A stretch of 64,000 nucleotides of DNA from Clostridia bacterium (GCA_017436915.1 JAFSCE010000031.1:1-64000), one strand, 5' to 3'. Shown: positions 11,583-36,768, counted from the first letter of the stretch. The notes: generated from the sequence alone by a model not told the origin. Translations and numbers: made by a program.

Positions 11583-11588
11583 AAGGAT

Positions 11589-11621: not shown

Positions 11622-11636
11622 AAGGGGAGGGAAAAT

Positions 11637-12419: not shown

Positions 12420-12431
12420 GGGGGATAAGCC

Positions 12432-20067: not shown

Positions 20068-20081
20068 ATAACTAACTGAAT

Positions 20082-20119
20082 AAAGAGCAGGCATAAAATG
20101 CCTGCTCTTTGCTTTTTTT
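20082..20119 (+). terminator. Rho-independent terminator after the adhesin
   Basis: Perfect arms AAAGAGCAGGCAT/ATGCCTGCTCTTT with an AAA loop, then GC and seven T. The next 140 bp to the spo0A promoter hold nothing else recognisable. Confidence 0.93.
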
Positions 20120-20258
20120 GATGGTATCACAATGTGCGTTCAGACGACACGCCCCGACAAGTCTCGCGACCCGGTTTTATGGATAATTACGTTTTCCTTT
20201 TATAAATTCCTTTCTATTTTATTCTTTTGCACAAAATTGAAAAATAATTTCCAAGTAC

Positions 20259-20287
20259 TTGAAATATTTTCCAATTTATGGTAATCT
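20259..20287 (+). promoter_or_regulatory. Predicted promoter of spo0A
   Basis: TTGAAA and TAATCT with a 17-bp spacer, about 40 bp before the TTG start. An imperfect palindrome (ATTTCCAAGTACTTGAAAT) overlaps the -35 box and may be a binding site. Confidence 0.5.
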
Positions 20288-20325
20288 AATGTTGCCGGCA
20301 AAAATATTAGGGAGGTTTATGTAAC

Positions 20326-21093
20326 TTGGAGAAGAAAATCAAGGTACTGTTAGCGGATAACAGCGAAAGTTTCGGAATACCATGTGCCACAAGAATGCGG
20401 AGTCACGGATTAGAGGTCGATTTGACGGAGAAGGACGGGAAAAGCGTTGTAGACACCATTTCTCAAAAGAAACCGGATGTTGTCATTTTGGATTTCTTTT
20501 TGCCGCGCTTAGATGCGATCGGTGTAATGAACAGCATCCGATCGATGAACTTGCCGTATGCGCCGCAGTTTATGGTAATGTCCGGATTTGATAATCCCAA
20601 TTTAGAACGCGAGGCCATTGAAGCGGGAGCAGCATATTATTTTTTAAAGCCGTTTGATGCCAATGAAATGTCGGAACGCATCTTATCGTTGTCCAGCAAA
20701 GAAAATATTGAGCCAATTCGTCGCAACGCAAACGGCAATACTAATTTGGAGATACGTGTCACGGATATTTTGCATCAAATTGGCGTTCCCGCACATATTA
20801 AGGGATATCAATATTTGCGCGACTCTATTATGATGGCGATTGAGGACGAGGAGATCATCAATGCTGTCACCAAACGCTTATATCCCGCCGTTGCGAAAAA
20901 ACACGGGACCACTTCTTCGCGCGTAGAACGCGCTATTCGTCATGCGATCGAGGTAGCTTGGGATCGCGGTGATGTCGATGTTTTAAATTCCTATTTTGGA
21001 TATACTATCCATAATGAGCGCGGCAAACCGACTAACTCTGAGTTTGTTGCGATGATTTCGGATAAATTCCGACTGCAGTTGAAAATATCTTGA
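20326..21093 (+). CDS. spo0A: Sporulation response regulator Spo0A
   Basis: Master regulator of entry into sporulation. Residues 5-122 are a receiver domain: phospho-acceptor Asp in VILDFFLP, switch Ser in MVMSGFDN, conserved Lys in FLKPFD. Residues 145-253 are the Spo0A DNA-binding domain, with TDILHQIGVPAHIKGYQYLR, SSRVERAIRHAIEVAW and KPTNSEFVAM, nearly identical in pattern to the Bacillus protein. The start is TTG 20326 after GGGAGG. Odd: the acidic pair that binds magnesium, Asp-Asp in Bacillus, reads ADNS here, so one acid is Asn. The gene usually follows spoIVB; here it follows an adhesin, so the neighbourhood is rearranged. Confidence 0.95.
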   Translation: MEKKIKVLLADNSESFGIPCATRMRSHGLEVDLTEKDGKSVVDTISQKKPDVVILDFFLPRLDAIGVMNSIRSMNLPYAPQFMVMSGFDNPNLEREAIEAGAAYYFLKPFDANEMSERILSLSSKENIEPIRRNANGNTNLEIRVTDILHQIGVPAHIKGYQYLRDSIMMAIEDEEIINAVTKRLYPAVAKKHGTTSSRVERAIRHAIEVAWDRGDVDVLNSYFGYTIHNERGKPTNSEFVAMISDKFRLQLKIS

Positions 21094-21114
21094 CGTATTG
21101 CGTCGTTTTATACC

Positions 21115-21155
21115 GCAAAAAAGCGCGCCTGCACTGATACAGACGCGCTTTTTTA
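21115..21155. terminator. Bidirectional terminator between spo0A and the recombinase gene
   Basis: Arms AAAAAAGCGCG/CGCGCTTTTTT with an inner CTG/CAG pair and a loop. It serves both convergent genes. Confidence 0.85.
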
Positions 21156-21161
21156 ATTTCT

Positions 21162-22151
21162 TTATGATTTTGGTTTTCCTTGCTTATCCATCGTTATTTG
21201 TGACAATGGGTTTAACTTTGCGGCGTTTTCAATTTGTTCGCTGGATAAGTGTGTATAGATCTCTGTTGTCCCTAAATTTTCGTGGCCTAAATAGTTTTGC
21301 AACACCCGCAGATCAACACCGCTTTGGTACATCAGTGTCGCCGCGGTATGCCGCAGTTTATGAGCGGTCATTTTTTGAGCGCCGTCAACCTGCGCAAGGT
21401 ATCCTTTTACAATGTAATGCACGCCTTGCAAGCTGATACGGCTCTTTAAACGGCTTAAAAAGAGTGCGTTCTTATCTTTGACATCAACAGGCCTGACCTT
21501 CAAATACTGCTCAATGGCCTGCTGGCAGGCATCATTGAGGTATAGCATGCGTTCCTTATTGCCTTTTCCGCGAACGCGCAACGTATGATCGGTCTGGTTA
21601 ATGTCTGTTAAGTTGATGTTAACCAGCTCAGCGCGCCGCAAACCGCAGTTTAAGAACAACACCAGCATGCAGTAATCACGTTCCGCAAAATCGCCGGAAA
21701 CGCTGTTTAAAAGGGCGACAGATTGTTGCAAGGATAAATATTGCGGCAAAGATTTTTTGGGTTTGGGGGTTTCCAGATTTTTAACCGGATTATGTTCCAG
21801 ATAATGAGAGTAATCTGTTAAATACCGAAAAAACATGCGCACGGAACTGGTCTTTCGTGCCCGCGTTTTATTGGAATTGCTACGTTCGTTGCGCAGGTAA
21901 TTCATATACTCATATACGTCGGTTGTTGTGATCGTCCGCACAAACTCCAAATCAATATCTGTAATGGATATTTCTTCGGTAGAGACAGTAGGGGGGACAA
22001 GACCGCGAAGCTCCTTCATATATCGAAAGAACGTGCGCAGATCAATGAAATATTCGTTGATTGTATTTTCAGAACGTCCCTTGATCGTTTGCATATATCC
22101 CAGATATTCTTTCATAATAGGAGGACACTGTGACATGTACTCTTTGCGCAT
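21162..22151 (-). CDS. Tyrosine recombinase, XerC/XerD type
   Basis: 329 residues. An N-terminal SAM-like core-binding domain (about 10-130) is followed by the catalytic domain, with the full set of residues: Arg in CGLRRAELV, Lys in GKGNKERML, HKLRHT, LGHENL and the nucleophile in TTEIYTHLS. The length and motif style fit chromosomal XerC/D better than phage integrases. The start was placed at ATG 22151, 6 bp after AGAGGAG; an earlier ATG abuts that site. It may resolve chromosome dimers or act on the inverted repeats just upstream. Convergent with spo0A. Its promoter lies within an inverted-repeat region. Confidence 0.9.
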   Translation of the reverse strand: MRKEYMSQCPPIMKEYLGYMQTIKGRSENTINEYFIDLRTFFRYMKELRGLVPPTVSTEEISITDIDLEFVRTITTTDVYEYMNYLRNERSNSNKTRARKTSSVRMFFRYLTDYSHYLEHNPVKNLETPKPKKSLPQYLSLQQSVALLNSVSGDFAERDYCMLVLFLNCGLRRAELVNINLTDINQTDHTLRVRGKGNKERMLYLNDACQQAIEQYLKVRPVDVKDKNALFLSRLKSRISLQGVHYIVKGYLAQVDGAQKMTAHKLRHTAATLMYQSGVDLRVLQNYLGHENLGTTEIYTHLSSEQIENAAKLNPLSQITMDKQGKPKS

Positions 22152-22173
22152 ACGCATCTCCTCTGTGAAACAT

Positions 22174-22189
22174 TGTTTCACGCGAAATA
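22174..22189. promoter_or_regulatory. ParB (parS)-like 16-mer upstream of the recombinase gene
   Basis: TGTTTCACGCGAAATA matches the parS consensus TGTTTCACGTGAAACA at 14 of 16 positions. It overlaps an everted pair, GTGAAAC/GTTTCAC, at 22165-22181. It is in the leader between promoter and start codon. Confidence 0.35.
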
Positions 22190-22209
22190 ATTAACGCTGT
22201 TACAACCTT

Positions 22210-22218
22210 AGTATAGCA
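22210..22218 (-). promoter_or_regulatory. Extended -10 promoter of the recombinase gene
   Basis: On the minus strand TGCTATACT, an extended -10 box, about 60 bp before the start codon. No good -35 is visible. The box lies in the left inverted-repeat arm. Confidence 0.5.
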
Positions 22219-22786
22219 TATCAACTATACAAAATAAATAGTATTTTTAAAAATTTATGTAATAGGCAGTAAGTGTGCTTATACGCGATAATACAAAAAC
22301 AATATTGTTATTACGATACTATTAAATTCGTCAATCTGATACTATGCGTACGAAATTCCTGAATTTGCTGTGTTTGCACAAAATTCTATCCGATAGAAAT
22401 TTTCTTAACGACCATGAGTATGTCAGGAAAATTTCTATTGTCTGGAAAAGAGCGGTTAGAAAATTTTGATAAGGAAAACGAACAGAAAAATATAATTAAA
22501 ATATCAGTTATTAAAATATGTGAATGTTATACACCAAGAGACGGTTAATTAAAACATAAGGATATAAACCATAGGTGGCAAGCGGTTTTATTTTGCAAAA
22601 CCCTAAAATGAGCCCTTTATCCATTATTTTTTCTGTTTCGCTCTCCTCTCAACTATACAAAATATTCATTTTGTATAGTTGGTGCTATGGGAGTAGGTTA
22701 AAGAGTTTAGTCTCCCCGATAAGGTTCTGTGTGGATTTTTGTTTATTAGAATAAGTAAAATATAGGTTATAAAGAATTATAAAGAA
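22216..22786. other. AT-rich non-coding region with inverted repeats
   Basis: About 570 bp with no credible gene on either strand. It holds three copies of AACTATACAAAAT: 22223 (plus), 22651 (plus) and 22669-22680 (minus), and a 12-bp inverted pair ATAGAAATTTTC (22393-22404)/GAAAATTTCTAT (22427-22438) beside a further TTCTATC/GATAGAA palindrome (22384-22398). A short hairpin GGTTTT/AAAACC lies near 22585. No riboswitch or known RNA family was recognised. Confidence 0.7.
22651..22680. repeat. Perfect 30-bp inverted repeat, Xer-site-like geometry
   Basis: Arms AACTATACAAAA and TTTTGTATAGTT, 12 bp each, around a 6-bp centre TATTCA. Two 11-12 bp arms with a 6-8 bp centre is the layout of tyrosine-recombinase core sites such as dif. 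A further copy of the arm with matching flank lies at 22223-22240 in opposite orientation. Confidence 0.75.
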
Positions 22787-23603: not shown

Positions 23604-25451
23604 TTACATTTTGATATAGCCGTACTGAGCCATCAACTCGAGTGTGCCGACAAAATCCTCAATTTCCTCATCGCTGTAACGGGTATTCAGATCCCATTCC
23701 GCTTCGATAAGCAGATCCTTAAGGGATTTCTTACCGTCCATACCGGTGAAAACGAAACTCAACAGTGCGACAATGTACGGACGCAAACGAACCCCCATCG
23801 GCATGGCGGCAAAGTCGTGCGGGATGCCAACAGTCAATCTGGAAGGACGAATATCCGCATACTTTTCCAATATAAGCGTTGCCGGATTGGGTGCTGCCGG
23901 TACAGGATCGGTATTATTAACATAATCGTTTATGATTTGGCAAGCCGCCTCAATCGATGCGGAATCAACACCTGCGTTCTCAAAATTACGGATATTGGCA
24001 ATTTCAATGTCTGCCGCATGGCGCAAACGTGCAACCGCATCCGTACCCGGGCGAAGCGGACAGATATCCGCTTTCCCCCTCAAGCGGGCGATGGAATAGT
24101 CCGCAGCTGTCGGTAAGAATTCCGCAATCGCTTTCGGGTCAGGACAAACTGTTGCCGCCAAATGAGCGGCATAAACGGCGGAAATACGAGAGAACTGTTT
24201 ATAATTGAGATATCCAAAACGTTGAGCCGAATTGTGCCAGCAACGTTCGGGATAACGCACGCCCATCGGCATAATAGTGGGCAATCCCATATCGGCATCG
24301 GACAGGAAGCTGTCGCCCGACCAAGAATAATGCCATGCACCGATGTGCGGCGGCAAATTGATGGTATTTTCATAAATGCGCCACATAGCTTCAAGCAACA
24401 CGTTGGAATAGAACGGAACAGCCGTCGGAGCAAAGCCAAGCGTCATTTGAGGAGCATTTACCGGAGTACCATCGATGCTGACGGCACCAATGCACTTGCC
24501 CTTGAGGATCGGGCCGTAATAGTTCGCACAAGCGGCAAACCCGTACAATTCCGGCGCCAAGATCAAGCGAATGGAATATTTGAGCGGGGGTACTTTTCCC
24601 TCTTCAATTGCTTGTTTGAGCAATTTCAAAACAAAGATACTCAGGCAAACACCATCGTTGTTATCGTTTTCCAACGGTTCACCGTTGTGTGCCAGAATCC
24701 AAAACTCTTTCGGGCTTTCTCCCTTGATATACGTCGTAACAACCGGCATTTTTCCGGCAAACCGACGTCCGTCGCACTCTGCTTTAACAGTAACCTCGCC
24801 GGCAGCGCAAGCTTTTTCCAGCTTTCTCTGCATATTGGGCGATACGGAGTAAGCAATAAAATCGCGTTCACCTTCAATAGGATGCCAACAGTTGGTCTCT
24901 GTGCAGTTATTCGCCCAAAGCAAGCAGTCAGGATGTGTTCCGCCGTCAATGGTGCCGCCGCTTACCAAGCCGATCGCGCCTCTGTCTAAAATGGGCGGCA
25001 ACGCTCTATCAGTGGGCAAAATGTGTTGCGGCAACAAAATCATGGCACCGGTGACATCTTCACCCGCCATCATTTTATCCCATGTAACTAGGCGTGTTGT
25101 GATGCCCTCTTTGGGCGTTGAAACGGAACCGCGAATGACAGAGAACGGCTCTTGCTCGTAATCGGCAATGACCCTATCCCCTTCCCAATCGGACAAAATG
25201 GTAAGTTTCGCGTGATCAACATCCCAACATAACGGCATTACTTTATCCTGAAAAACGGTTTTGCCGTCAAAATCAATTTCAGGTCTTTCCGGCTCAAATC
25301 CCAGTTTCTTCAACAGATCTGCAGCATAGTCCATTGCATCATGATTGGCGCGATATGTCTGCGGCAATTCTCTTGCGTGCAATGCTTGCGTGTGCTCTTT
25401 CAGAAATGCTTCATCCCGCATTTCCCAAAAGGTTTCAAAATACTTTTTCAT
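23604..25451 (-). CDS. M28-like (DUF4910-type) zinc aminopeptidase
   Basis: 615 residues without a signal peptide, so cytoplasmic. The central part has the metallopeptidase pattern: first His in WILAHNGEPLENDNNDG with the bridging Asp, a Glu in ILAPELYGFA, Asp in AVSIDGTPV, and the terminal His region RYPERCWHNSA. The spacing follows M28 peptidases with an inserted domain (around residues 110-220, protease-associated-like) and a winged-helix-like C-terminus. The start ATG 25451 has AAAGGTG upstream; a longer open frame upstream lacks a ribosome binding site. Promoter TTGACA/TATAAC lies at 25504-25532. It may trim peptides or glycopeptides; the exact substrate is unknown. Confidence 0.75.
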   Translation of the reverse strand: MKKYFETFWEMRDEAFLKEHTQALHARELPQTYRANHDAMDYAADLLKKLGFEPERPEIDFDGKTVFQDKVMPLCWDVDHAKLTILSDWEGDRVIADYEQEPFSVIRGSVSTPKEGITTRLVTWDKMMAGEDVTGAMILLPQHILPTDRALPPILDRGAIGLVSGGTIDGGTHPDCLLWANNCTETNCWHPIEGERDFIAYSVSPNMQRKLEKACAAGEVTVKAECDGRRFAGKMPVVTTYIKGESPKEFWILAHNGEPLENDNNDGVCLSIFVLKLLKQAIEEGKVPPLKYSIRLILAPELYGFAACANYYGPILKGKCIGAVSIDGTPVNAPQMTLGFAPTAVPFYSNVLLEAMWRIYENTINLPPHIGAWHYSWSGDSFLSDADMGLPTIMPMGVRYPERCWHNSAQRFGYLNYKQFSRISAVYAAHLAATVCPDPKAIAEFLPTAADYSIARLRGKADICPLRPGTDAVARLRHAADIEIANIRNFENAGVDSASIEAACQIINDYVNNTDPVPAAPNPATLILEKYADIRPSRLTVGIPHDFAAMPMGVRLRPYIVALLSFVFTGMDGKKSLKDLLIEAEWDLNTRYSDEEIEDFVGTLELMAQYGYIKM

Positions 25452-25503
25452 TTTACAACACACCTTTCCAATTTGGATCACCATCCCCAATGGTTTCAAC
25501 CTC

Positions 25504-25532
25504 GTTATACCACCATAAAAAGAGCATGTCAA
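25504..25532 (-). promoter_or_regulatory. Promoter of the peptidase-GNAT operon
   Basis: Minus strand TTGACA and TATAAC with a 17-bp spacer, a near-consensus sigma-A promoter. Confidence 0.8.
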
Positions 25533-25616
25533 GCAAAAACAAGCAGGCTAATCACCTAATACAAAAAATGGACAAATTTAACAAAATGGCCTCTTTCAAA
25601 AAGGTCGTTTACAAAA

Positions 25617-25648
25617 AAACAAAGCGGCTCAGTTGAGCCGCTTTGTTT
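25617..25648 (-). terminator. Terminator overlapping the SGNH gene stop codon
   Basis: Perfect 15-bp arms AAACAAAGCGGCTCA/TGAGCCGCTTTGTTT. The stop codon at 25647-25649 lies in the stem and a T-run follows on the minus strand. Confidence 0.88.
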
Positions 25649-26723
25649 ACAATATTTCATTTAGTTTAGCGATAATTGCCTCCGCAAAACGTTCGTGTGC
25701 TTTTGCTCCGGGATGATGTCTGGAACCTTTAAGATCAGGGGTAGCTCTCGGTAGGCGCACAGTGTAGATTTTGTCGTCACCTGTATCTTGTTTGAATCTC
25801 TCGGCTGCTTCAATCATTTGCGGATCAAGAGCATCCGTCAGTGTATTATGACACAGCAAAATGATGGTTTTTTTGTTGCGTTTTCGGATGTTTGCGCAAA
25901 AATTATAAAAGGCGTCAACAATGTAATGCAGATCATCAGGGCGCTTCAATTTGTGCGAAAGACCATTCTCATCAATCCACGCCTCCGCGTTTTCATTGTA
26001 GGCATTTGAATCATTTGCACCAAGATTGATAATCGTAATGTTTGTCCTATCGTTTTCAACGTCAAAAATATCACGCGCACCAAGCTCCGTAGCTTCTGGT
26101 GTTTCGTTAGTGCCGTAGACATAATCGTACTCTTTCGGGACGGCATGCTCACGGTTGTTTTTGTAATCGGTGAACACGCCCCAGCCGCCGTGCGCCACAA
26201 TACTCCAATCTGCATCAAATGCTTTTGCCACGGTGAGTACGTAGTGCCCGCGGGAGCTGAAAACGGCAGGTGACCATTCGGTCATGGAGGGGGCACCGGC
26301 CAACCCTTCGCCGGCGGTTACACTGTCCCCAAACGCTTCAATCTTGTATTTCCGCTCGGGGAGTGTCTTAAATTCTCCGTCACTATACAATGCGTCACAC
26401 GTAATAAGAGTTGCCGAAAATGCTGACGTTTCTCGGAAAATGCGAACGTTTTTAATCTGTTCTGCAGCTAACCCGCGCATAATGCAAACTTTGTGTGTAC
26501 CGATATCAATCGGGAAACGATACATATCAAATCCGTCAATTTCCACACGAAGATAGGCATCGCCGGTGCAGGTATATTCAAGCCACAGTTCGGTGCCGGT
26601 AATGTTAAATTCTATCGCCGCGGCAGACCAAAACAACGGAATGCCTTTTGTTTTTCGGTTGCTTACTCGTCCGTGCACCCTAATTTCGGGCACTTCTGTG
26701 CATAGATGTTTTGTTAAATTCAT
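25647..26723 (-). CDS. SGNH/GDSL carbohydrate esterase, CE2-like
   Basis: 358 residues. Residues about 1-125 form a beta-rich N-terminal domain as in CE2 acetyl-xylan esterases; residues 130-358 are an SGNH hydrolase. Block I is EAFGDSVTAGEG with the nucleophile Ser, block III is NLGANDSNA, and the C-terminal Asp/His region is LKGSRHHPGAKAHERFAEA. It lacks a signal peptide. The start ATG 26723 follows GGGAGG by 6 bp. It lies 24 bp after the GH20 gene and shares its promoter. Together they suggest deacetylation and cleavage of an imported acetylated oligosaccharide; the substrate is inferred. Confidence 0.85.
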   Translation of the reverse strand: MNLTKHLCTEVPEIRVHGRVSNRKTKGIPLFWSAAAIEFNITGTELWLEYTCTGDAYLRVEIDGFDMYRFPIDIGTHKVCIMRGLAAEQIKNVRIFRETSAFSATLITCDALYSDGEFKTLPERKYKIEAFGDSVTAGEGLAGAPSMTEWSPAVFSSRGHYVLTVAKAFDADWSIVAHGGWGVFTDYKNNREHAVPKEYDYVYGTNETPEATELGARDIFDVENDRTNITIINLGANDSNAYNENAEAWIDENGLSHKLKRPDDLHYIVDAFYNFCANIRKRNKKTIILLCHNTLTDALDPQMIEAAERFKQDTGDDKIYTVRLPRATPDLKGSRHHPGAKAHERFAEAIIAKLNEIL

Positions 26724-26747
26724 TTCTGTACCTCCCAAAGCCCATAG

Positions 26748-28205
26748 TTAACGCTCGTAAAAACATAAGACATTGTCAATCACTTCGTCCAAACAGTGCA
26801 AATCACTCAAAAACTTCTCTTTATCAACTGTTTGATAGGATGTCCACGTTTTTTCTGCAAGCGCAGGAAGACGTTCTTTTAATTTTGAAAACTCATCGCG
26901 TAACATATCACAGCGCGGAGCGTATCCGTTCGACGGCTGCATTCTGTCGCCCCATACACAGATTTGTCCACCTAAAATGGCGGGGCTCTCCTCTGTCACG
27001 ATGGGAGCTTTTGTGGCCTGTGATTTTTCCCACCAATGGTTCCAACGGTTTTTCTCCCAATCCAAGATTTCCTCCGTGGGCCACATCCGCTGAGGATGAA
27101 CAATGTAGAGCGGTTGCCAAGAAGCATTGATGATGTTAAAACCGCCGCGCAGTAACGACGGCGCTATTTGATAGTAGGATTCCCAACTAAACACTAAGGT
27201 TTCTTTTGGGATCATAGGATTCGTCTTTTCACTAAAACCTTCCCAGACTACAGGGATCTTGCCCATATCAAGGATCATTTGGCTGAAACGCGCAACACAG
27301 TGGCCGTACAGCTCGTGAATATCGGAGAGTCCGTGTTCCGCGCAGTATTGCATGGACGCTTCACAGTTCGCCCATTGATCAATTTGCGCCTCATCCCCAC
27401 CGATATGGATCCACGGCGAATCGTAAAATACTTCCGTTACTTCTTTGAAAATGTCTTGCATGATATCGAAGCTTTGCTCTTGGGCTCTCATAATGCCGGA
27501 AACGCCGCCGGTTTCGGCAGTTGTCTCGGCACCCTCGGTTTCACCAACCGTTCCGAAAAGATCGGGATAAGCCGTATTAAAGGCGCGGAAATGACCGGGA
27601 GCGTCGATTTCAGGTACGATCGTGATACCGCGGTCGTGGCAGTATTCAATCAAGCCCGTAAGCTGCTCGCGCGTGTAGTGCTCGTCGGAAACAGCGTTTG
27701 GTAACGATGAAAAGGGAAATCGAATCGCTTGATCATCGGTCAAGTGAAGTTGAAACCGATTGATCTTATAAAACCAACAGAGGTCTGCTACAGCATAGAG
27801 GTATTCGATCTCATGAAAACAACGCACCGTATCAATCATAACACCGCGCCAACTGCTGTCTGGTGAATCAACAATTTCACATTGCGGGAAAACCACATCG
27901 TTGTCGATAGTTTGAGCCAACTGCAACAACGTCGCAAGTGCATAATTCGCTCCAACGTTTGTGGATGCCGAAATAATAACGTGGTCATCAATTGACATAC
28001 GATACCCATCGTCAAGTCCATCCTGAAAAATCAATTCAATGTTCGTTGATGAATTTTTAACAGAGCCAAAAATGCGCTTGGCATATTCCCTAAACGCACA
28101 GATAGCCGGAGTGAAAATCGGGTCTGTTTTTGTAACTTCAAATGCTGCGGGAATCGTACCGCCTGTAATGTCAAATTTTTTAGGACGTGGGATGGGATGA
28201 TTCAT
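26748..28205 (-). CDS. Beta-N-acetylhexosaminidase, GH20
   Basis: 485 residues. The N-terminal domain (1-115) is the GH20b type. The TIM barrel begins at WRGVMIDTVRCFHE. The catalytic Asp-Glu pair is WIHIGGDEAQ near residue 245. Other barrel motifs are FQLHLTDDQAIRF, IVPEIDAPGH and LVFSWESYY. GH20 enzymes remove terminal GlcNAc or GalNAc by substrate-assisted catalysis. No signal peptide is seen, so it acts inside the cell on imported material. The start ATG follows GGAGGT, with a 17-bp-spaced promoter upstream. First gene of a two-gene operon with the SGNH esterase. Confidence 0.93.
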   Translation of the reverse strand: MNHPIPRPKKFDITGGTIPAAFEVTKTDPIFTPAICAFREYAKRIFGSVKNSSTNIELIFQDGLDDGYRMSIDDHVIISASTNVGANYALATLLQLAQTIDNDVVFPQCEIVDSPDSSWRGVMIDTVRCFHEIEYLYAVADLCWFYKINRFQLHLTDDQAIRFPFSSLPNAVSDEHYTREQLTGLIEYCHDRGITIVPEIDAPGHFRAFNTAYPDLFGTVGETEGAETTAETGGVSGIMRAQEQSFDIMQDIFKEVTEVFYDSPWIHIGGDEAQIDQWANCEASMQYCAEHGLSDIHELYGHCVARFSQMILDMGKIPVVWEGFSEKTNPMIPKETLVFSWESYYQIAPSLLRGGFNIINASWQPLYIVHPQRMWPTEEILDWEKNRWNHWWEKSQATKAPIVTEESPAILGGQICVWGDRMQPSNGYAPRCDMLRDEFSKLKERLPALAEKTWTSYQTVDKEKFLSDLHCLDEVIDNVLCFYER

Positions 28206-28396: not shown

Positions 28397-28819
28397 CTAA
28401 ATTTTCACTTTTCCCACAATTTTCAAAACCTTTTCAGGCATTTCTTTTGCTATACCGGGCTTGTGAGCATCTTTAGGGAAGAAAATCTCATATTTACCGG
28501 CAGGAACAACCATTCTTTTTGCCATTTTAGGTTCTTTAAAAAATACAATATCTTTTTGAGAATCGTATGGCACTTCACATTCTAAAAATGCAGAAGCGGT
28601 TACCTCCATACATTCTTTACCTTTTACAATGTATTGAATATCAACATACTTTTTATGTGCCTCGAACTTACACTCATGGGGCATTTTAGTTTCATATTCC
28701 TGAACTAAATAAAAGAACTCATCATCAACGTCATATCTTCCACATTTTAATTCATCAAAATTGAGGGATGAAATCAATTTAACTGCTGATACAATTCTTT
28801 GTGGTAAGGTACTTGCCAT
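28397..28819 (-). CDS. YhcH/YjgK/YiaL family protein
   Basis: 140 residues, a cupin-like family often linked to sialic acid or uronic/keto-sugar operons; one member is an anomerase for sialic acid (NanQ). Motifs are the metal-ligand segment HKKYVDIQYIVKGKE near 60 and the C-terminal IFFPKDAHKPGIA with a conserved His near 118, typical of this family. Last gene of the operon. The family's role would be mutarotation of the sugar substrate or of the keto-deoxy intermediate. The start ATG has AGGAG upstream. Confidence 0.88.
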   Translation of the reverse strand: MASTLPQRIVSAVKLISSLNFDELKCGRYDVDDEFFYLVQEYETKMPHECKFEAHKKYVDIQYIVKGKECMEVTASAFLECEVPYDSQKDIVFFKEPKMAKRMVVPAGKYEIFFPKDAHKPGIAKEMPEKVLKIVGKVKI

Positions 28820-28850
28820 AATATTCTCCTTGTGTAAGATACTAGGTGAA

Positions 28851-29933
28851 TTAACGGTTAAAAACGCCTATTAACATACCTTCTTCTCTAATACCTGCCC
28901 AATGAGCTTCATTAATTTGTTTGAGAGAAAAACGATGAGAAATAAGACGATATAGCGGCAAATTTTTTCTCTTTGCAGAATCTAAAATTGCCAAACATTC
29001 TCTATATTCTTCATCGGTAAATGAAGTTTTGCTAATCCCATGAGAATCTTCAAATCTTTGAATTTTCTCATTTCTGTTGTGAATGAGATTGCTTAGATCA
29101 TAAACAGAACCTTCAGAAACGGCAAATCGCTTTGTAATTGAAGGAGAAATTGCTTTTTCTGTACACAAAAGAACCATATCGGCCTTTTTACCACCAAATT
29201 CACTTAAAATGGCTTCTTGAATTCCCTCAACACTGGTTTTTTCCGAGGAAATTACCGTATCTTTCGCACCTAACATTTTTGCTAAACGTAATTCCTCTTC
29301 ATCAGCGCCTACAATTATTATATTGTTGAAATCATTTGCTTTGAGAATCGCGGTTATTAAAAGTGCTTCTAATTTGCTGCCAAAAATAACAACGTTACTA
29401 CTATTCCCTCTACCCATTTTAGAAACTCTCTTGACTTCCCAATAAACATCAAGAACCTTTTTAAAAATCAACCGAGAATCTAAATCTAAAGAGTTAACTT
29501 TTAACAGAGTTGTACTTGGATTACAAACAACATAATTTGAATACCAAGTGTCTGCAGATGCTCCGAAGCTGTTTTTCTTGATAATTCCAATAACCTTATC
29601 ACCTTTTTGAAGAGATGACCCAAAAGCATCAACAACATTTGTACCGACCTTTTCAACAACGCCGGTACCATATTGTCCAAAGAAAGGGGTATATCCGTTT
29701 TTATGCTCTCTCAAAAATTCAACCGTATCGGAAAAAGAGAGACAACAGCCTTCAACTTTAACCAATACTTCATTACCAGAAATAGAAGGAATACAGCCTT
29801 CTTCAAACTCATACTTTTCAGGAGTTTTTAAGACGGCGGTACGGATCTTATCTTCTGCAACCTTGGATCCTTGCAATGCTTGAACCTCAGATAGGACTAT
29901 TTTAACAATATCATCAACTTTTCTATCTAACAT
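28851..29933 (-). CDS. Medium-chain dehydrogenase/reductase, zinc ligands altered
   Basis: 360 residues of the MDR superfamily: a GroES-like N-terminal domain (about 45-170) and a Rossmann domain with NVVIFGSKLEALLITAIL near 195. The catalytic zinc pattern is changed: the usual GHE motif reads FGQYGTGVVEKVG, so the His and Glu are absent, although a Cys pair (EGCCLSFSD) stands at the first position. It may be zinc-free, like the quinone-reductase branch. An N-terminal extension of about 35 residues is unusual. It sits between the YhcH and DapA-like genes and probably reduces an aldehyde or oxidises a sugar acid; the direction is unknown. Confidence 0.75.
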   Translation of the reverse strand: MLDRKVDDIVKIVLSEVQALQGSKVAEDKIRTAVLKTPEKYEFEEGCIPSISGNEVLVKVEGCCLSFSDTVEFLREHKNGYTPFFGQYGTGVVEKVGTNVVDAFGSSLQKGDKVIGIIKKNSFGASADTWYSNYVVCNPSTTLLKVNSLDLDSRLIFKKVLDVYWEVKRVSKMGRGNSSNVVIFGSKLEALLITAILKANDFNNIIIVGADEEELRLAKMLGAKDTVISSEKTSVEGIQEAILSEFGGKKADMVLLCTEKAISPSITKRFAVSEGSVYDLSNLIHNRNEKIQRFEDSHGISKTSFTDEEYRECLAILDSAKRKNLPLYRLISHRFSLKQINEAHWAGIREEGMLIGVFNR

Positions 29934-29949
29934 TCCATCCGACCTCCTT

Positions 29950-30846
29950 CTATATCAATTGCATTTCTTTCATTTTATTATAGACCTTTGCTTTTGCTTT
30001 AGCATCGAGTGATAAAGCGGGAAGTGTTTCATAGCAATCCTTATCCAAAACTCGATAATACATAGCTTGTTTACAAGCCAAGAATAGTGGGGTGCTATAA
30101 TTATAAATTTCCATAGCATCAACCATTTTTCTGAACCAGACACTCGCCTCGTTGAAATCATTTCTTAAAACCGCTTGATATGTATTAACAGTGAATTCAG
30201 GTGCAAAGTTTGCGGTTGCGTTAATGAAACCATCAACACCACACGCAAGAATACCTAATGCCTGATTTTCAAACGCGGCAAACACAGAGAAATCAGGGTT
30301 GATTTCTTTCACTTTGTTCATACTTAAAATATGGTTAAAGTCGCCAATTGTGTCCTTAATGCCGACGATATTAGGATTGTCTTTAACCAATCTACAAACA
30401 ACATCAGCATTAAAACAATAGCCCGTTAGATCAGGAAAATTATAAATAATAACAGGCAGATTAGTATGAGAGGCAACGTGATTAAAGTATGCAATAACCA
30501 TATCACTGCTATAAACGCTGAAATAAGGATTTACCAAAAGGACACCATCTGCGCCTTCTTTTTCGACGAAATCCAACATTTCAAGCGTGTTGGTGATACA
30601 AGTATCACCAACACCAATAATAACATTAACCCGACCATTAACATATTTAATCATTTCTTTAACGAAACGCTTCTTTTCTTCAAGGGGGATTACGCTAAAC
30701 TCCCCCGAAGTTCCTAAATAAGCTAATCCGTCGACTCCTTTGGAAATAAGGAAATCTGCCTGTTTCTTACTCGCTTCAATGTCAATCTTTCCTTGTTCAT
30801 CAAAAAGTGTGATAACAGGAGGATTAACACCGCATAATTTTTTCAT
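29950..30846 (-). CDS. DapA/NanA-type class I aldolase, complete active site
   Basis: 298 residues. The family is a TIM-barrel of Schiff-base lyases (dihydrodipicolinate synthase, N-acetylneuraminate lyase, 2-keto-3-deoxy acid aldolases). The pyruvate site GTSGEFSVI is near residue 45, the proton-relay Tyr in VIIYNFPDLTG near 137, and the Schiff-base Lys in IVGIKDTIGD near 165. This combination fits a keto-acid lyase rather than biosynthetic DapA because it sits in a sugar-type operon. The neighbours, an enolase-superfamily dehydratase and MBL hydrolase, point to a 2-keto-3-deoxy sugar acid substrate. Start has GGAGAA upstream; 17 bp before the MDR gene. Confidence 0.85.
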   Translation of the reverse strand: MKKLCGVNPPVITLFDEQGKIDIEASKKQADFLISKGVDGLAYLGTSGEFSVIPLEEKKRFVKEMIKYVNGRVNVIIGVGDTCITNTLEMLDFVEKEGADGVLLVNPYFSVYSSDMVIAYFNHVASHTNLPVIIYNFPDLTGYCFNADVVCRLVKDNPNIVGIKDTIGDFNHILSMNKVKEINPDFSVFAAFENQALGILACGVDGFINATANFAPEFTVNTYQAVLRNDFNEASVWFRKMVDAMEIYNYSTPLFLACKQAMYYRVLDKDCYETLPALSLDAKAKAKVYNKMKEMQLI

Positions 30847-30893
30847 TTGGTTTTCTCCTTAATTACCGCTATGTAATAGAAAAAATTTTCGGA

Positions 30894-32060
30894 TTATTTG
30901 GATTTTTCAACCTTAAAACGTTGTTCCGTACCCGGTTTGTAAGGATATTTATTGATAATTTCATCATCTAAGTGGATACCGAGACCGGGCGTGTTGGGAA
31001 TGAGTAATTCACCATCAACCATTTTGAGAGGTTCATTCATTAACTCTTCGCGCAACGGGTTCGCTACCTGCTGGAATTCGCAAATCAACGCATTAGGAAT
31101 TGCAGAGAGAAGATGCAAATGAGCCATAAACGATGCGCCCGAACGGAATACGTGAGGAGCAACAGTGATACCGTTGTAATAAGCATATTCGGCTGCCTTT
31201 TTAACTTCAGCGATACCACCGGCGTGTGTAACGTCAGGCTGAATGATGTCAAGACAATTGTTATCGATTAATGCTTTGTATTCATAAATTGAACAACCAT
31301 TTTCACCGCCGGCAATCGGTGTTGTCCCACTTGCTTCATGAACCTTTCTATAAACGTCTAATTCATCTGTTCTGCAAGGTTCTTCAATGAACATCAACTG
31401 ATATTCCTCTAAGGCCTTAACAACGCCGATCGCCTCTTTTGCAGACCAAGCAAAAGGAACATATCCTTGACCGCAGTCAATAGCCAAATCAAAATCATAA
31501 CCTAAAGATTCTCTTAAAGCTTTGACTTTTTGAACATCGCGTTTTTTATCATAACCACCACGGATTTTAACGGCCTTAAAGCCCTTCTCTAAGTAACCGT
31601 TTACTTCTTTTATTAAAGAATCAATCGGCTGTTCCATACCGCCGCTGGCATACGTTTTAATGGAATCTCTGTATTTACCACCAAGAAGCGAATGAACAGG
31701 CACACCCAATGCCTTGCCCTTCAAATCCCATAATGCATTTTCAATACCACTGATAACGCCCATAGCAATACCGCGACGACCCCAGTTGGCACCAAGCTTA
31801 TACATTCTTGATTGTAAAACCTCAATTTCAAAGGGATCTTGGCCGATCAATGTTTTTGCCAAAAATTCGCAGATGGCTTTTGCCGCTTCCGGAATATAGT
31901 GACCTGTACCCATTTCGCCACAGCCATAAATGCCTTCGTCCGTCCAAACTCTAACTAATGAAGTATGCCAAACTTTAACTTCACCGCCGGACCAGCCCCA
32001 CTGTTCTTCCGGTTTGTATTCATAAGACAATAAAATCGGTTCAACTTTTGTAATTTTCAT
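30894..32060 (-). CDS. Enolase-superfamily sugar acid dehydratase (MR/MLE type)
   Basis: 388 residues. The mandelate racemase/muconate lactonizing subgroup has an N-terminal capping domain (1-125) and a barrel. Metal and catalytic motifs in order: AVKIRGG near 165 (K-x-R instead of K-x-K), LAIDCGQG (metal Asp), MFIEEPC (metal Glu), GGENG (metal Glu), IQPDVTHAGG and APHVF, giving a His-Asp pair. This pattern is seen in acid sugar dehydratases that remove water from an aldonate. The exact sugar is not readable. It is preceded in the operon by the MBL hydrolase and followed by the aldolase. Confidence 0.88.
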   Translation of the reverse strand: MKITKVEPILLSYEYKPEEQWGWSGGEVKVWHTSLVRVWTDEGIYGCGEMGTGHYIPEAAKAICEFLAKTLIGQDPFEIEVLQSRMYKLGANWGRRGIAMGVISGIENALWDLKGKALGVPVHSLLGGKYRDSIKTYASGGMEQPIDSLIKEVNGYLEKGFKAVKIRGGYDKKRDVQKVKALRESLGYDFDLAIDCGQGYVPFAWSAKEAIGVVKALEEYQLMFIEEPCRTDELDVYRKVHEASGTTPIAGGENGCSIYEYKALIDNNCLDIIQPDVTHAGGIAEVKKAAEYAYYNGITVAPHVFRSGASFMAHLHLLSAIPNALICEFQQVANPLREELMNEPLKMVDGELLIPNTPGLGIHLDDEIINKYPYKPGTEQRFKVEKSK

Positions 32061-32086
32061 AGTTTTTTATCCTCTCTTAAATATTA

Positions 32087-32815
32087 TTATAATTCTGCAA
32101 TAACAGGACATTTGAAATCGTGACCTGTTAATACAATACCGTTATGTTGTTTGCAAAGAGAAACAGCAGTTTTTGCTTTATCCGGTTCCATGCAAAACCC
32201 TATGGGGATTTCATTTTGAATATTTTCTAAAAGATAAACAACATCCCCGGTAAATAAAAAGTTTCCAGCATAAACCATTATGCTGCCAGGAGTATGCCCT
32301 CCAACTACCTTACACTTGATATTGGATTCTGTATAAAGATCTTCCACTAAACACAAGTCGCCGTTTTCTTTTTTATTTTCCAGAAAAGACACGGCATCAT
32401 CTAAGTGTTTTCTGTGAGGATGTTCTTCGCCACACAAATAATCATATTCTTTTGCAGACATATAGATTTTCGCATTGGGAAAGTGCACAATACCTGAAAA
32501 ATGATCATAATGGGTATGCGTTATAAATATCTTTTTGATATCTATAGGTGAAACACCGACTTTTTCTAAATTCCAAAGAATGTTTCCGTCGGTTTCCCCT
32601 CTTTTCCAATCATCTTTACTTGATTTTGTTTTATTTACAACATCAATATCTTCGATTCCGCAATCCACTAAAACATATTCATCATTATTCTTGATTAAAT
32701 AAGCAAAGCAACCGATTAATGTTAATGTTTCAGGATTGCCACCTAAAGTGAGAATGGAATCTTTGCATAATATGTTTGCGAAATCTAAACGCCAAACTTT
32801 AATGTCTTTTGCCAT
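32087..32815 (-). CDS. Metallo-beta-lactamase-fold hydrolase, lactonase-like
   Basis: 242 residues. The motif HTHYDHFSG near residue 102 is the HxHxDH metal site. Further ligands are in GGHTPGSIM (His near 178), LFTGDVVY (bridging Asp) and LTGHDF (last His). This pattern matches AHL-lactonase-type MBL proteins, which open lactone rings. In this operon, between an SDR and an aldonate dehydratase, a sugar lactonase role fits. The length and lack of signal fit a cytoplasmic enzyme. Starts after GGGGTTA, a weak ribosome binding site. Confidence 0.82.
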   Translation of the reverse strand: MAKDIKVWRLDFANILCKDSILTLGGNPETLTLIGCFAYLIKNNDEYVLVDCGIEDIDVVNKTKSSKDDWKRGETDGNILWNLEKVGVSPIDIKKIFITHTHYDHFSGIVHFPNAKIYMSAKEYDYLCGEEHPHRKHLDDAVSFLENKKENGDLCLVEDLYTESNIKCKVVGGHTPGSIMVYAGNFLFTGDVVYLLENIQNEIPIGFCMEPDKAKTAVSLCKQHNGIVLTGHDFKCPVIAEL

Positions 32816-32832
32816 AAGTTTAACCCCCGAAA

Positions 32833-33723
32833 TTATTTTACTCTGTCATATAACGTGAAGAGTTCTTGCTTTTCGGGCTCGGAAAGGACTGTTCCCGGAC
32901 GTCTGATCAAAACATTATCCATAACGCCGATTTTGCATAGTAATTCTTTTTCGCAAGAAATATAGAATTCTAACGATTGGTCTTCAAACCAAACAAGGGG
33001 TAGAATTTTTTCGAAAATAGTTCTTGCCTCATCTTCTTTTCCCGAATATAAATTGTTATAAATTTCAACAAATTTATCACAGATCGCAACACCCGGCATA
33101 ATGCCCCAAGCGCCGCATTTATGAGCATCGATCGTATAAATACCACCGTTGCCGCTATAGCACTTAATTTCGCCATTTGTGATTTTATTGATCTGACGAA
33201 TTTTTCTGGTTGGGAACGGACATTCAACTTTGAGGTATCTAAATTGAGGGACTCTTTTGTACACGTCGATAATAAAATCCAAACTCATATTAATACCGGT
33301 TGACCGGGGGTTATCCTGAATCATAACAGGTAGATCAACGGCATCGGCAACTGTTTTGAAATAATAAATTAATTCTTCACCCGCCGGACAAGAAATGGAT
33401 GGCGGATAAAGAATGATGCCATTCGCATGGCCTTCTTTGGCAGTAAGCCCTAACTCAATAACACCTTTAATAGAATTATCAATAAGACCTATGACAGTTT
33501 GAATTCTGCCACCAACTGAATTTAAGAAGTATTTAATAACTTCCTTTTTTTCCTCTAAAGTCATTTTGTGGGGTTCACTGTTAAAGGCAAAGAGGCAAAC
33601 GCTTTTGCATCCGCTTTTAATAACAAAATCAACGATTTTATTTATTCCCTCATAATTAATACTTTCATCGTCATTAAAAGGGACGTTAATTACGGGACAG
33701 ACGTCCTTAAATAAATACTCCAT
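32833..33723 (-). CDS. Second DapA-family protein, catalytic Tyr missing
   Basis: 296 residues, DapA/NanA barrel. The Schiff-base Lys is kept (YLKVECPFP near 163), but the pyruvate-binding GTTGE is replaced by AFNSEPHKM, and the conserved Tyr of the YN.P..TG motif is replaced, with IQDNPRSTG at that position. It may be a keto-acid lyase or dehydratase of a divergent branch that uses a different proton route. It is the second gene of the operon (after the SDR). Start ATG 33723 with AAAGGTG 6 bp upstream; a GTG in that site is not the start. Confidence 0.8.
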   Translation of the reverse strand: MEYLFKDVCPVINVPFNDDESINYEGINKIVDFVIKSGCKSVCLFAFNSEPHKMTLEEKKEVIKYFLNSVGGRIQTVIGLIDNSIKGVIELGLTAKEGHANGIILYPPSISCPAGEELIYYFKTVADAVDLPVMIQDNPRSTGINMSLDFIIDVYKRVPQFRYLKVECPFPTRKIRQINKITNGEIKCYSGNGGIYTIDAHKCGAWGIMPGVAICDKFVEIYNNLYSGKEDEARTIFEKILPLVWFEDQSLEFYISCEKELLCKIGVMDNVLIRRPGTVLSEPEKQELFTLYDRVK

Positions 33724-33745
33724 TTCATTCACCTTTCTCTAAAAA

Positions 33746-34498
33746 TTATAATAATTTACCGCCATCAACAACGATTTCAGCACCTGTTATGTACGATGCT
33801 TCATCTGTTGCCAAAAACGTTACCACACCGCCTATATCATCCGGTTTTCCCAAACGTTTCAAAGGAATACCGTTTCGGCAAGCTTCGTAGAATTCAGGAT
33901 CCGACAAGACATCGTTATTAAAGTCGGTGTGAATACTACCCGGCAAAACCGCATTAACGGTTATTCCATAAGGAGCAAGTTCTAAAGCACCACTCTTTGT
34001 CAACATACCAATGGCACCTTTCGATGCACAATAATGGGTTCTGTTAACTGCGGCCTCGTATTGTGAAATGGAAGAAATATTGATAATTCTTCCACACTTT
34101 TTATCAATCATTAATTTTGCCGCATTTTGCATACACAAGAAATACCCTCTTGCGTTCGTTTCCATAACCAAATTCCATTCATCAATCGTTAATTCGAGAA
34201 ATGGGGTTCTGGTAAGAACTGCTGCGTTATTAACCATAATATCAAGATGACCATACGTTTCTTTGATTCGGTTAAACATTCTTTCAATTTCTTCCGGCTT
34301 TGAAATATCAGCAGCCATATATTCGCATTTAACGCCGAGTTCTAAAATCTCTTTTTGAACATTTAAGCACTCGCTAATGTTGTTTCGACAATGTAAAATA
34401 ACATCCGCACCGGCTTCTGCTAAACTTTTTGCAATAGCTCTACCGATACCACGACTGGAACCCGTTACTAAAGCCGTTTTTCCTTTTAACGAAAACAT
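33746..34498 (-). CDS. Short-chain dehydrogenase/reductase, FabG-like
   Basis: 250 residues. NAD(P) site TGSSRGIGRAIAKSLA near residue 13, NNAAVL near 86, catalytic Ser in IINISSISQ near 137 and YCASKGA (Tyr, Lys) near 152; VDGGKLL closes the family. It fits a sugar or 3-oxoacyl dehydrogenase; in this operon it likely oxidises an aldose to the aldonolactone. First gene of the operon, facing the AraC gene. Start ATG 34498 with AGGAAGG upstream; an earlier ATG would lie in that site. Confidence 0.9.
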   Translation of the reverse strand: MFSLKGKTALVTGSSRGIGRAIAKSLAEAGADVILHCRNNISECLNVQKEILELGVKCEYMAADISKPEEIERMFNRIKETYGHLDIMVNNAAVLTRTPFLELTIDEWNLVMETNARGYFLCMQNAAKLMIDKKCGRIINISSISQYEAAVNRTHYCASKGAIGMLTKSGALELAPYGITVNAVLPGSIHTDFNNDVLSDPEFYEACRNGIPLKRLGKPDDIGGVVTFLATDEASYITGAEIVVDGGKLL

Positions 34499-34722
34499 GT
34501 CTTCCCTTCCTTTCGCCATTTGCAACAGATTATTGTCACCCTATTGTATAATCATATATCTCGATTATATATATTGACACGGTGTTTTACCATAGTATTT
34601 TTGACAGAATCATAATAATCTTTGTTTTTTTGTCCTTGTTTTTTTGCATACTAATATTCAATATTTTAGTTTTTGGTCAATATTGCCAATTACATAACAA
34701 GTTAATACATCATTATAACCAA
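34499..34722. promoter_or_regulatory. Divergent control region of the catabolic operon
   Basis: About 220 bp, very AT-rich, between the SDR and AraC genes. It contains an ATATAT-type imperfect palindrome near 34555-34575 but no clear minus-strand sigma-A promoter. An AraC-binding site is expected here but not identified. Confidence 0.35.
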
Positions 34723-34750
34723 TTGACAATAGCAAGTTTTTTGATATAAT
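34723..34750 (+). promoter_or_regulatory. Consensus promoter of the AraC gene
   Basis: Perfect TTGACA and perfect TATAAT with a 16-bp spacer, 46 bp before the start codon. Confidence 0.9.
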
Positions 34751-34795
34751 ACAGGTGTATTTTTCAAAAAAATAATGTTAATAAGGAAAGAAAAA

Positions 34796-35623
34796 ATGCG
34801 TAACTTTGATCTGCCTTCGGGAATAAAAATCCAAAAATTTGTTGACAAAAAAACCTTTGTAAAATCAAGTCATTCGCATCCATATTATGAATTTTTATAT
34901 GTTCGCCACGCCTCTTTCAACTACTTGATCGAAGATGAAATTGTTTCTCCAGTAAATAACAGCATTATTTTAGTTGATAAAAACACAATACACAAAGCCC
35001 TTTACGCCGATACCGATATTGATACGTATATCATTGTTCAATTTTACGGAAGTTTGATAGAAGATGAATTGAAGGCGGATTTAGAAAATTTATTCAAAAA
35101 CCGTATTTTAACCTTGAGCGATAAAGATATGGTCCTAATTGATTTTCTCATGAATAAAGCATATAAAGAAAGCAAAGAAAGAAAAAACAATCGCATGGCA
35201 ATGCTAAAGTATCAACTACATGAGCTTATAGAAATTCTTTATCGCATTTCTGTCAACAACAAGACCGGCCCCTCCCCCTCGGCACCTTCCACGATGGAAA
35301 AAGCCATTACGTATATTAACGAGAATTTGTTTTCGCAAAACGGTCCTGAGATCACTTTGCAAAGTGTAGCCGACCAATTCCATATGAGTCCTTATTCTTT
35401 TTCAAAAATGTTTAAACGAGAATCCGGAATCGGTTTTAAAGAATATATTATATCTGCAAAGATTCTTCAAGCCAAAAAACTCCTTGCTTCAACCGATTAT
35501 CCTATCACCGAAATTGCTTTTTTAAGCGGTTTTACCGATAGCAACTATTTTTCAAGTGTATTCAAAAAATATGAATCTGTTACCCCTTCTGAATATTCGA
35601 AATTTATAAAAAAATATAATTAA
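34796..35623 (+). CDS. AraC family transcriptional regulator
   Basis: 275 residues. Residues 1-140 are a cupin-like sensor (SSHSHPYYEFLYVRHASF near 28). Residues 175-275 hold two helix-turn-helix motifs: TLQSVADQFHMSPYSFSKMFKRE and ITEIAFLSGFTDSNYFSSVFKKY, ending TPSEYSKF. Divergent from the operon it very likely controls. The start ATG 34796 has AAGGAAAG 5 bp upstream; an earlier in-frame ATG overlaps that site. Codon use is AT-rich like the operon genes. A terminator follows at the stop. Confidence 0.92.
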   Translation: MRNFDLPSGIKIQKFVDKKTFVKSSHSHPYYEFLYVRHASFNYLIEDEIVSPVNNSIILVDKNTIHKALYADTDIDTYIIVQFYGSLIEDELKADLENLFKNRILTLSDKDMVLIDFLMNKAYKESKERKNNRMAMLKYQLHELIEILYRISVNNKTGPSPSAPSTMEKAITYINENLFSQNGPEITLQSVADQFHMSPYSFSKMFKRESGIGFKEYIISAKILQAKKLLASTDYPITEIAFLSGFTDSNYFSSVFKKYESVTPSEYSKFIKKYN

Positions 35624-35665
35624 CACAAAAAGACGGTACACCAAATGGTGTACCGTCTTTTTGTG
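35624..35665. terminator. Bidirectional terminator with 20-bp perfect arms
   Basis: CACAAAAAGACGGTACACCA and its exact complement with an AA loop, ending between the AraC and PfkB genes. Followed by GTGGCAAGTTGCAACGA, a tail similar to the one after the 36915 terminator. Confidence 0.92.
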
Positions 35666-35679
35666 GCAAGTTGCAACGA

Positions 35680-36768
35680 TTAAACTTTGTCGTCATACAT
35701 TTCCATTGCTTTGGAAATGTCATCAAAGCTGTTACATTTTCCATTCTTAACGTAAAGATATGATGTTGTCATACCGCTTATAAGGCAACTCTTTACGTCC
35801 AGACCTGCAAGAAGGCCTGCACAGAAGCCTGAATTAAAATTATCTCCACCGCCCGTGGTCTTCTTGGGCTTCTCACACAAAATCCCTTGCACTTCTACCT
35901 CACCGCCATCATATACGGCAGCTGAGCTGTCAACCGGATGAATGATTACTGTACCTATGCCGGAGAATTCTTTAATTACTCTTGCAATAGACAAAGAACC
36001 CTCGTATTCACCCTCACACAAAACCGAGTGCATTACCATTGATTCGCTCTTGTTAAGCCCAAGGTATGTGGGAGCATACTGACTGTAACGGCCGAACATT
36101 TTAAGAGCCGCTTTTATTTCATTGGGGGATCTTTTAGCGCAGTCTGCGATATCAATGTATATTTTTCTGTCCTTCTTTTTGAGTTTGGGCATTACCACTT
36201 CAAGAAAGTTTTCATATATTTCGTGGAAATGAACAAGGTAACTCCAATTCACAAGAGTGATAATATCTGCATCTTCAAAATATTTCACCATTTCGTCAAT
36301 GCTGACACGCTCTATCAAATCATTCCAAGTAAACTTGCTGATTTCCTTAATATTACTCATAATTATTTTTCCGTCTTCGAACTCAAACAGATACGAATAT
36401 CCGGGCTCACCGACAGTTATCGTCTTACAATTTTTATGCAAATCAAACACGGGGTTCATTTCGGGATAGCCGAGAGTACCCACGCAAGTACAGTTTACGC
36501 CCATGTTGGCAAGTCCGTTTATGTAGTGAGGTCCGCATCCGCCGAAATCGGTCTTTTCAAAAACAAGCTCAATATTGCCGCTTATCCCCGCAAGACTCGA
36601 CACCTTTTCCCCGAATGTATCAATAGTGGGATAATACGTGCAAGTGTTTTCATCCGCACGTGTCTTGACAGGCTTTACAACATAATCAATAAATCCGTCA
36701 AATCCAACACTGACATTCTTTGACTGTACCAGTTCTTTTTTCTCCTTAAACTGCTGTGAATACTTCAT
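35680..36768 (-). CDS. PfkB family carbohydrate kinase
   Basis: 362 residues. The ribokinase-fold signature near the C-terminus is TTGGGDNFNSGFCAGLLAG, with the catalytic Asp in GGGD. The N-terminus SVGFDGFIDYVV and the FGGCGPHYINGLANMG segment bind the sugar. ATP-dependent kinase, substrate unknown; possible ones are a 2-keto-3-deoxy sugar, a nucleoside or a hexose. It stands alone on the minus strand with its own terminator. Codon use is less AT-rich than the operon beyond the terminator. Start ATG has GGAAAT upstream, a weak site. Confidence 0.85.
   Translation of the reverse strand: MKYSQQFKEKKELVQSKNVSVGFDGFIDYVVKPVKTRADENTCTYYPTIDTFGEKVSSLAGISGNIELVFEKTDFGGCGPHYINGLANMGVNCTCVGTLGYPEMNPVFDLHKNCKTITVGEPGYSYLFEFEDGKIIMSNIKEISKFTWNDLIERVSIDEMVKYFEDADIITLVNWSYLVHFHEIYENFLEVVMPKLKKKDRKIYIDIADCAKRSPNEIKAALKMFGRYSQYAPTYLGLNKSESMVMHSVLCEGEYEGSLSIARVIKEFSGIGTVIIHPVDSSAAVYDGGEVEVQGILCEKPKKTTGGGDNFNSGFCAGLLAGLDVKSCLISGMTTSYLYVKNGKCNSFDDISKAMEMYDDKV

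Follow-up and report, generated by a model that had tools for sequence, protein, structure and literature searches.

The window analysed here (a stretch of 64,000 nucleotides, contig C30 of a 1.5-Mb genome that is 99% complete) contains seven genes on its minus strand, filling positions 28397-34498, in which the families of aldose dehydrogenases, lactonases, aldonate dehydratases and 2-keto-3-deoxy acid aldolases/dehydratases (taken as families only) all occur in one operon. The question raised by this locus is whether its products form a non-phosphorylative sugar oxidation pathway, as an earlier note on this DNA had proposed, and which of the seven genes would belong to it. Judging from active-site residues, relatives and genomic context, we consider it rather probable that the operon encodes such a pathway, with the core as proposed and with an accessory MDR protein that would be non-catalytic.

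Operon layout and flanking genes

The open reading frames and their Pfam families bore out the seven-gene operon in the positions and order first described, with intergenic gaps (in transcription order) of 13, 17, 26, 47, 16 and 31 nt. An AraC-family regulator (PF12833; 34775-35623, plus strand) is divergent from the operon, facing it as the earlier note had said, and a match to the promoter consensus (TTGACA-16-TATAAT, 34723-34750) is located on the AraC side. The seven-gene run contains neither a transporter nor a kinase, as had also been claimed; a ketohexokinase-family gene (prokaryotic, PF25270; 35680-36768) lies just past the regulator and is convergent with it, the two being separated by a strong stem-loop (19-bp stem). 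A homologue of this gene (33%) was found near Gln-type DapA and enolase-superfamily genes at another locus (L018). On the opposite flank, a GH20 gene follows 191 nt beyond the last operon gene, with a promoter-like site at 28273-28245; the same-strand downstream region (23604-28205) comprises this GH20 hexosaminidase (PF00728), a CE2-like SGNH esterase (PF17996, PF00657) and a 642-aa protein that had no Pfam match.

Conservation of the core

The dehydratase was used as query against the GTDB genome contigs and recovered four records above 80% identity (the next best reaching 36%), all from MAGs named Clostridia or Oscillospiraceae, three of which name a ruminant gut sample. Their gene order, a check that the earlier note had called for, agreed with that of the window to different extents. 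The Clostridia MAG RGIG3123 (L024) carries a syntenic copy of the operon at 97.5-100% identity, and the match takes in the whole region, including the AraC, kinase and GH20 genes, with protein identities of 94-100%; in the three carriers outside the window lineage the dehydratase is 82-87% identical. MAG SIG443 (L016/L025), which represents a second family, has a compact run (aldolase, dehydratase, MBL, SDR, DapA1) that adjoins housekeeping genes (alaS and a bacA-type gene in L016) and has identities to the window of 27% (aldolase), 86% (dehydratase), 41% (MBL), 66% (SDR, 66-67%) and 55% (DapA1). Two short contigs (L026, L027) contain partial copies in the order AraC, aldolase, dehydratase (and MBL), and in both a homologue of the regulator (37-46% identity) is likewise divergent from the operon.

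The core consists of five genes (aldolase, enolase-superfamily dehydratase, MBL, SDR and DapA1), both DapA types included. The putative aldolase of the window (DapA2) is a non-orthologous replacement in the core slot, with 24-29% identity to the aldolases of the other carriers, which share 48-62% among themselves. The MDR and YhcH genes, absent from the compact L016 core and seen only in the window lineage, are accessories added in that lineage, outside the core; hence the earlier view that both supply core pathway steps is not sustained. Considering that a syntenic copy exists in RGIG3123 and that the core recurs in other MAGs, the operon is not a product of chance, and its conservation is to be read as spanning few genomes, since a single complete core occurs outside the window lineage. 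A dehydratase search of 398 genomes of the phylum and 16 genomes from the family of G301 (the other full core carrier) revealed no further carrier. At 1e-10, 74 distant enolase-superfamily loci (32-38% identity) had no match to DapA1, DapA2, MBL, MDR or YhcH, and therefore do not define the substrate.

Across 28397-36768, synonymous divergence from the RGIG3123 copy is patchy (SDR 0.019, YhcH 0.025, dehydratase 0.18, kinase 0.26), which suggests recombination; the dehydratases differ by 39 synonymous and 0 nonsynonymous changes. A separate locus (L019 of G563, 7393-12865) brings together an SDR, a UlaG-like MBL protein, an enolase-superfamily protein, a Gln-type DapA, a KDPG-type aldolase and a PfkB kinase, and is an independent assembly of the same predicted enzyme families that ties them together. 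A LacI-type regulator adjoins this cluster.

SDR, MBL and enolase-superfamily enzymes

The SDR oxidoreductase (33746-34498; PF13561/PF00106), a proposed aldose (hemiacetal) 1-dehydrogenase, has intact motifs (TGSSRGIG for TGxxxGIG, NNAA, NISSI with its Ser, and YCASK for YxxxK), and its closest solved relatives are glucose/ribitol dehydrogenase and FabG. The MBL-fold hydrolase (32087-32815; Pfam and active-site residues) had been placed in the lactonase slot, and this placement as a putative sugar lactonase is supported by its intact residues (HTHYDH100-105, H174, D191, H232) as well as by its top NCBIfam models, which, all below cut-off, were AiiA lactonase (64.7 bits), AttM lactonase (50.1) and 4-pyridoxolactonase (48.4), the AiiA and AttM models being named as acyl-homoserine lactonases.

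The enolase-superfamily enzyme (MR/MLE, mandelate-racemase group; 30894-32060; Pfam and residues), a proposed aldonate dehydratase, retains the catalytic set K165, D195, E226/E227, E253, D276 and H303, with the Lys on strand 2, the three acidic metal ligands and the His-Asp dyad of mandelate-racemase-group acid-sugar dehydratases, a residue set that is not specific to dehydration because cycloisomerases and racemases have it in common. Its AF2 model (pLDDT 86) matched MR-group dehydratases/cycloisomerases with Z of about 44-49; these included dehydratases of mannonate and gluconate as well as the cycloisomerases 5olc and 4hpn. The structure prediction suggested earlier thus recovered the MR-group fold but did not discriminate between substrates, and, as cycloisomerases are among the matches, neither the substrate nor even the reaction is fixed by the fold. 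Against NCBIfam, the models of named dehydratases (D-galactonate, arabinonate, mannonate, rhamnonate and others) stayed under their equivalog cut-offs (best PRK14017, 226.7 of 311 bits), and none of the core enzymes scored high enough to be assigned to any NCBIfam equivalog of defined sugar specificity.

Two unlike DapA proteins

DapA2 (29950-30846; DHDPS/NAL by Pfam) is predicted to be a YagE-like class I 2-keto-3-deoxy acid aldolase: it matches YagE with 186 bits and keeps Y135, K164 and GTSGE, that is, the Tyr, the Schiff-base Lys and the GxxGE motif of YagE-type class I aldolases. DapA1 (32833-33732; DHDPS/NAL by Pfam) is a Gln-type protein in which the aldolase Tyr is replaced by Gln and the GxxGE motif is missing, and its best solved relative is L-2-keto-3-deoxyarabonate (L-KDA) dehydratase (3fkk, 83 bits). 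That enzyme is thought to descend from an aldolase ancestor whose Tyr was replaced by Gln143, with Glu173 and Glu200 as its proposed bases (reviewed in PMC9795676). Aligned with 3fkk, DapA1 has the equivalents of Gln143, Lys171 and Glu173, and carries Gly at the Glu200 site in both the window and L016, for which reason we do not file it as an L-KDA dehydratase; it is probably not an ordinary aldolase, and probably an enzyme of the Schiff-base dehydratase-like kind. DapA1-like Gln-type proteins lie beside KDPG-type aldolases in three other loci (L017, L018, L019; two also with PfkB kinases), which fits a non-aldolase role. Thus, the presence of two unlike DapA proteins, pointed out in the earlier note, extends to the sole complete core outside the lineage, but a role of DapA1 as a second ordinary aldolase is not supported, its catalytic Tyr being Gln.

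Accessory proteins and a possible microcompartment link

The YhcH/YiaL-family (DUF386) protein (28397-28819) scored 119.9 bits with PF04074 and above the cut-off of TIGR00022, and is a possible sugar anomerase. It fell below the cut-off of the N-acetylneuraminate anomerase (YhcH/NanQ) model NF040884 (90.6 of 160 bits), and on this score a sialic-acid reading of YhcH was dropped.

The MDR protein (28851-29933) is at the limit of its Pfam families (ADH_N scores 23.5 bits, equal to its cut-off, and ADH_zinc_N 25.1 against a cut-off of 31.8). Its relatives came from 29 loci found by searching 391 genomes of the class and from one further locus (L007) in a family search; microcompartment shell genes accompany all 30 nearest non-self relatives examined, and wherever the site is covered these all have CG(V/I)CGTD and GHEGTG. 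Within the class, those nearest to MDR are lactaldehyde reductases encoded in glycyl-radical microcompartment loci, and one lies in the window's own genome. Aligned with these relatives, the MDR protein reads CCLSFSD for CGVCGTD, GQYGTG for GHEGTG, FKK for IEP and GSKLEA for the NAD glycine motif GxGxxG, and lacks a loop of about 25 residues; in a FastTree phylogeny its branch, 1.94 long, arises inside the compartment clade, where local support is weak. The protein derives from a microcompartment lactaldehyde reductase, and aldehyde dehydrogenase activity is improbable for it; the role of aldehyde reductase or oxidase once given to it was not borne out, as the zinc ligands and the NAD motif are lost.

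The N-terminus of the MDR protein (VDDIVKIVL) aligns with the encapsulation helix of its relatives. The helix pattern occurs in 17 of 1,137 ORFs from other loci, five of which are MDR (four copies) and a microcompartment PduL, and the remainder resemble membrane or signal segments. The AF2 model (pLDDT 77) has a helix at 3-21 and the MDR fold, with 1vj0 as best match (Z 28.8). Scored against a strict profile built from the encapsulation helices of its relatives, MDR gave nothing significant, so that it is position, pattern and alignment that suggest an encapsulation helix. Of the changes that separate the MDR gene from its RGIG3123 counterpart, 11 are synonymous and 6 nonsynonymous (Ka/Ks 0.15; for neutral evolution, P = 1.7e-4), and the gene is under purifying selection.

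GRM5 organelles are known for fuculose- or rhamnulose-phosphate. On contig C10 (from 13225 to 22560 and further; L126), the window's genome carries a complete glycyl-radical microcompartment locus of the GRM5 type (as defined in PMC6325248; see also PMC5311937), which has its own intact lactaldehyde reductase, the MDR gene being situated outside this locus, in the sugar operon. Two more BMC shell-domain matches, apart from the GRM5 locus, are found on contig C7 (6509-6995; L127), next to genes for a DeoR-type regulator and a malate/lactate dehydrogenase (PF02615). RhaA is present in the genome (5e-175) and a fucose-isomerase domain match is weak (1.6e-10); for the window lineage, these and the GRM5 locus favour lactaldehyde as the aldehyde formed, which makes a 6-deoxyhexose the best guess for the sugar. 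L-fucose would be an example, and we advance a sugar of this type tentatively, as a guess with more chance of being wrong than right. In G301, a search for shell genes found none, and FucI and RhaA are both present; this indicates that the core is independent of the compartment and that the fucose guess is weak.

Proposed pathway and alternatives

The intact residues of SDR, MBL, dehydratase and DapA2 fit a sequence in which the SDR would oxidize a cyclic aldose to its lactone, the MBL hydrolase would open the lactone to the aldonate, the enolase-superfamily enzyme would convert this to a 2-keto-3-deoxy acid, and DapA2 would split the latter into pyruvate and a short aldehyde. DapA1 would act as a Gln-type (dehydratase-like) Schiff-base enzyme, rather than as a second aldolase, and its substrate would be either that 2-keto acid or a related one; YhcH, added in the window lineage, may be an anomerase. 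The MDR protein, a putative GRM5 lactaldehyde reductase derivative that lost its catalytic centre and kept the fold and a putative encapsulation-type helix, would probably be a non-catalytic partner. Of the pathway first proposed, the core (SDR, MBL, dehydratase and class I aldolase) stands on the shared gene set and the residues, but the roles of DapA1 and MDR do not.

A version closer to the original one, with both DapA proteins as aldolases and an active MDR aldehyde reductase/oxidase completing the pathway, draws on family membership and on the MDR fold retained in the model (1vj0, Z 28.8); we hold it to be highly improbable, given that DapA1 has neither the aldolase Tyr nor GxxGE, that CCLSFSD, GQY, FKK and GSKLEA replace the zinc/NAD motifs of MDR, and that MDR is missing from the L016 core. 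It is also conceivable, if rather unlikely, that dehydration of the 2-keto-3-deoxy acid by DapA1 yields a semialdehyde, which is then oxidized to a 2-oxo dicarboxylate (as in Route II), with DapA2 working elsewhere or in parallel. The Gln, Lys and Glu common to DapA1 and L-KDA dehydratase (PMC9795676) would agree with this, as would the separate KDPG-type aldolases beside DapA1-like proteins in L017, L018 and L019, but the proposed catalytic Glu200 is Gly, the operon has no aldehyde dehydrogenase, and the genome-wide Aldedh matches amount to two ORFs, one being the microcompartment enzyme. Entry through a 2-keto-3-deoxy ulosonic acid (KDO or sialic-acid type), which DapA2 would split into pyruvate and an aldose for SDR, MBL and dehydratase, with DapA1 acting last and YhcH as ulosonate anomerase, would account for the pair of DHDPS/NAL enzymes and for the presence of YhcH (NanQ-like by family match); DapA2 is, however, nearest to YagE and not to NanA, YhcH scores well under the N-acetylneuraminate anomerase cut-off and the L016 cluster lacks YhcH, all of which makes this entry very improbable.

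Alongside any of these readings, the MDR gene by itself could be a decaying, functionless copy, as the loss of all recognizable catalytic elements and the very long tree branch might imply. We regard decay as improbable, because the ORF is intact in two genomes, 6 of 17 changes are nonsynonymous (against neutrality, as above), and a fold and a helix are predicted. Under the preferred pathway, MDR may link the sugar route and the microcompartment, or be an inactive helper. More specifically, and only as an unlikely conjecture, a pseudoenzyme with an encapsulation peptide would tether to the GRM5 microcompartment, or regulate there, the part of a cytosolic pathway that yields the aldehyde. MDR would then, for example, pair with the intact lactaldehyde reductase, and aldolase-derived lactaldehyde would enter the compartment without phosphorylated sugars, a scheme that we consider equally speculative.

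Significance and comparison with known systems

Full-text searches of openly licensed literature found no account of an MBL sugar lactonase combined with DapA and 2-keto-3-deoxy chemistry, and among the titles and abstracts listed there was no report of a microcompartment with a pseudoenzyme or with 2-keto-3-deoxy acids. The operon points to a sugar-acid route of gut Clostridia that would be new to the literature, in which an MBL-type lactonase is combined with an ordinary aldolase and a dehydratase-like DapA. It also points to a relative of a microcompartment enzyme, possibly devoid of catalysis, that selection has maintained within a sugar operon; if MDR does still reach the compartment, a phosphate-free pathway would be connected with GRM5 organelles.

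A precedent is the SDR/MBL pair of pyridoxal 4-dehydrogenase and 4-pyridoxolactonase, whose substrates are a hemiacetal and the corresponding lactone; the SDR/MBL pairing of the operon resembles it. With E. coli YagE, a 2-keto-3-deoxy acid aldolase, DapA2 shares the complete Tyr/Lys/GxxGE site, whereas the other core carriers fill its slot with an aldolase of different descent. DapA1 agrees with L-KDA dehydratase (3fkk, 7c0c) in the Gln143, Lys171 and Glu173 positions and in the loss of the aldolase GxxGE, but differs in its Gly for Glu200 and matches at only about 83 bits. The MDR protein belongs to the same family as the GRM5 lactaldehyde reductase, has a putative N-terminal encapsulation-type helix in the same place and aligns in its C-terminal region, although it is encoded outside the compartment locus and has lost the zinc ligands, the NAD motif and the loop of some 25 residues. 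At the level of the whole pathway, the operon has in common with the Weimberg/Dahms or ED-type non-phosphorylative aldose/deoxyhexose pathways a dehydrogenase, a lactonase, a sugar-acid dehydratase, a last step by the DHDPS/NAL family and the absence of a kinase step, and it differs from them in its MBL-fold lactonase, in the Gln-type DapA that accompanies a separate aldolase, and in having no aldehyde dehydrogenase.
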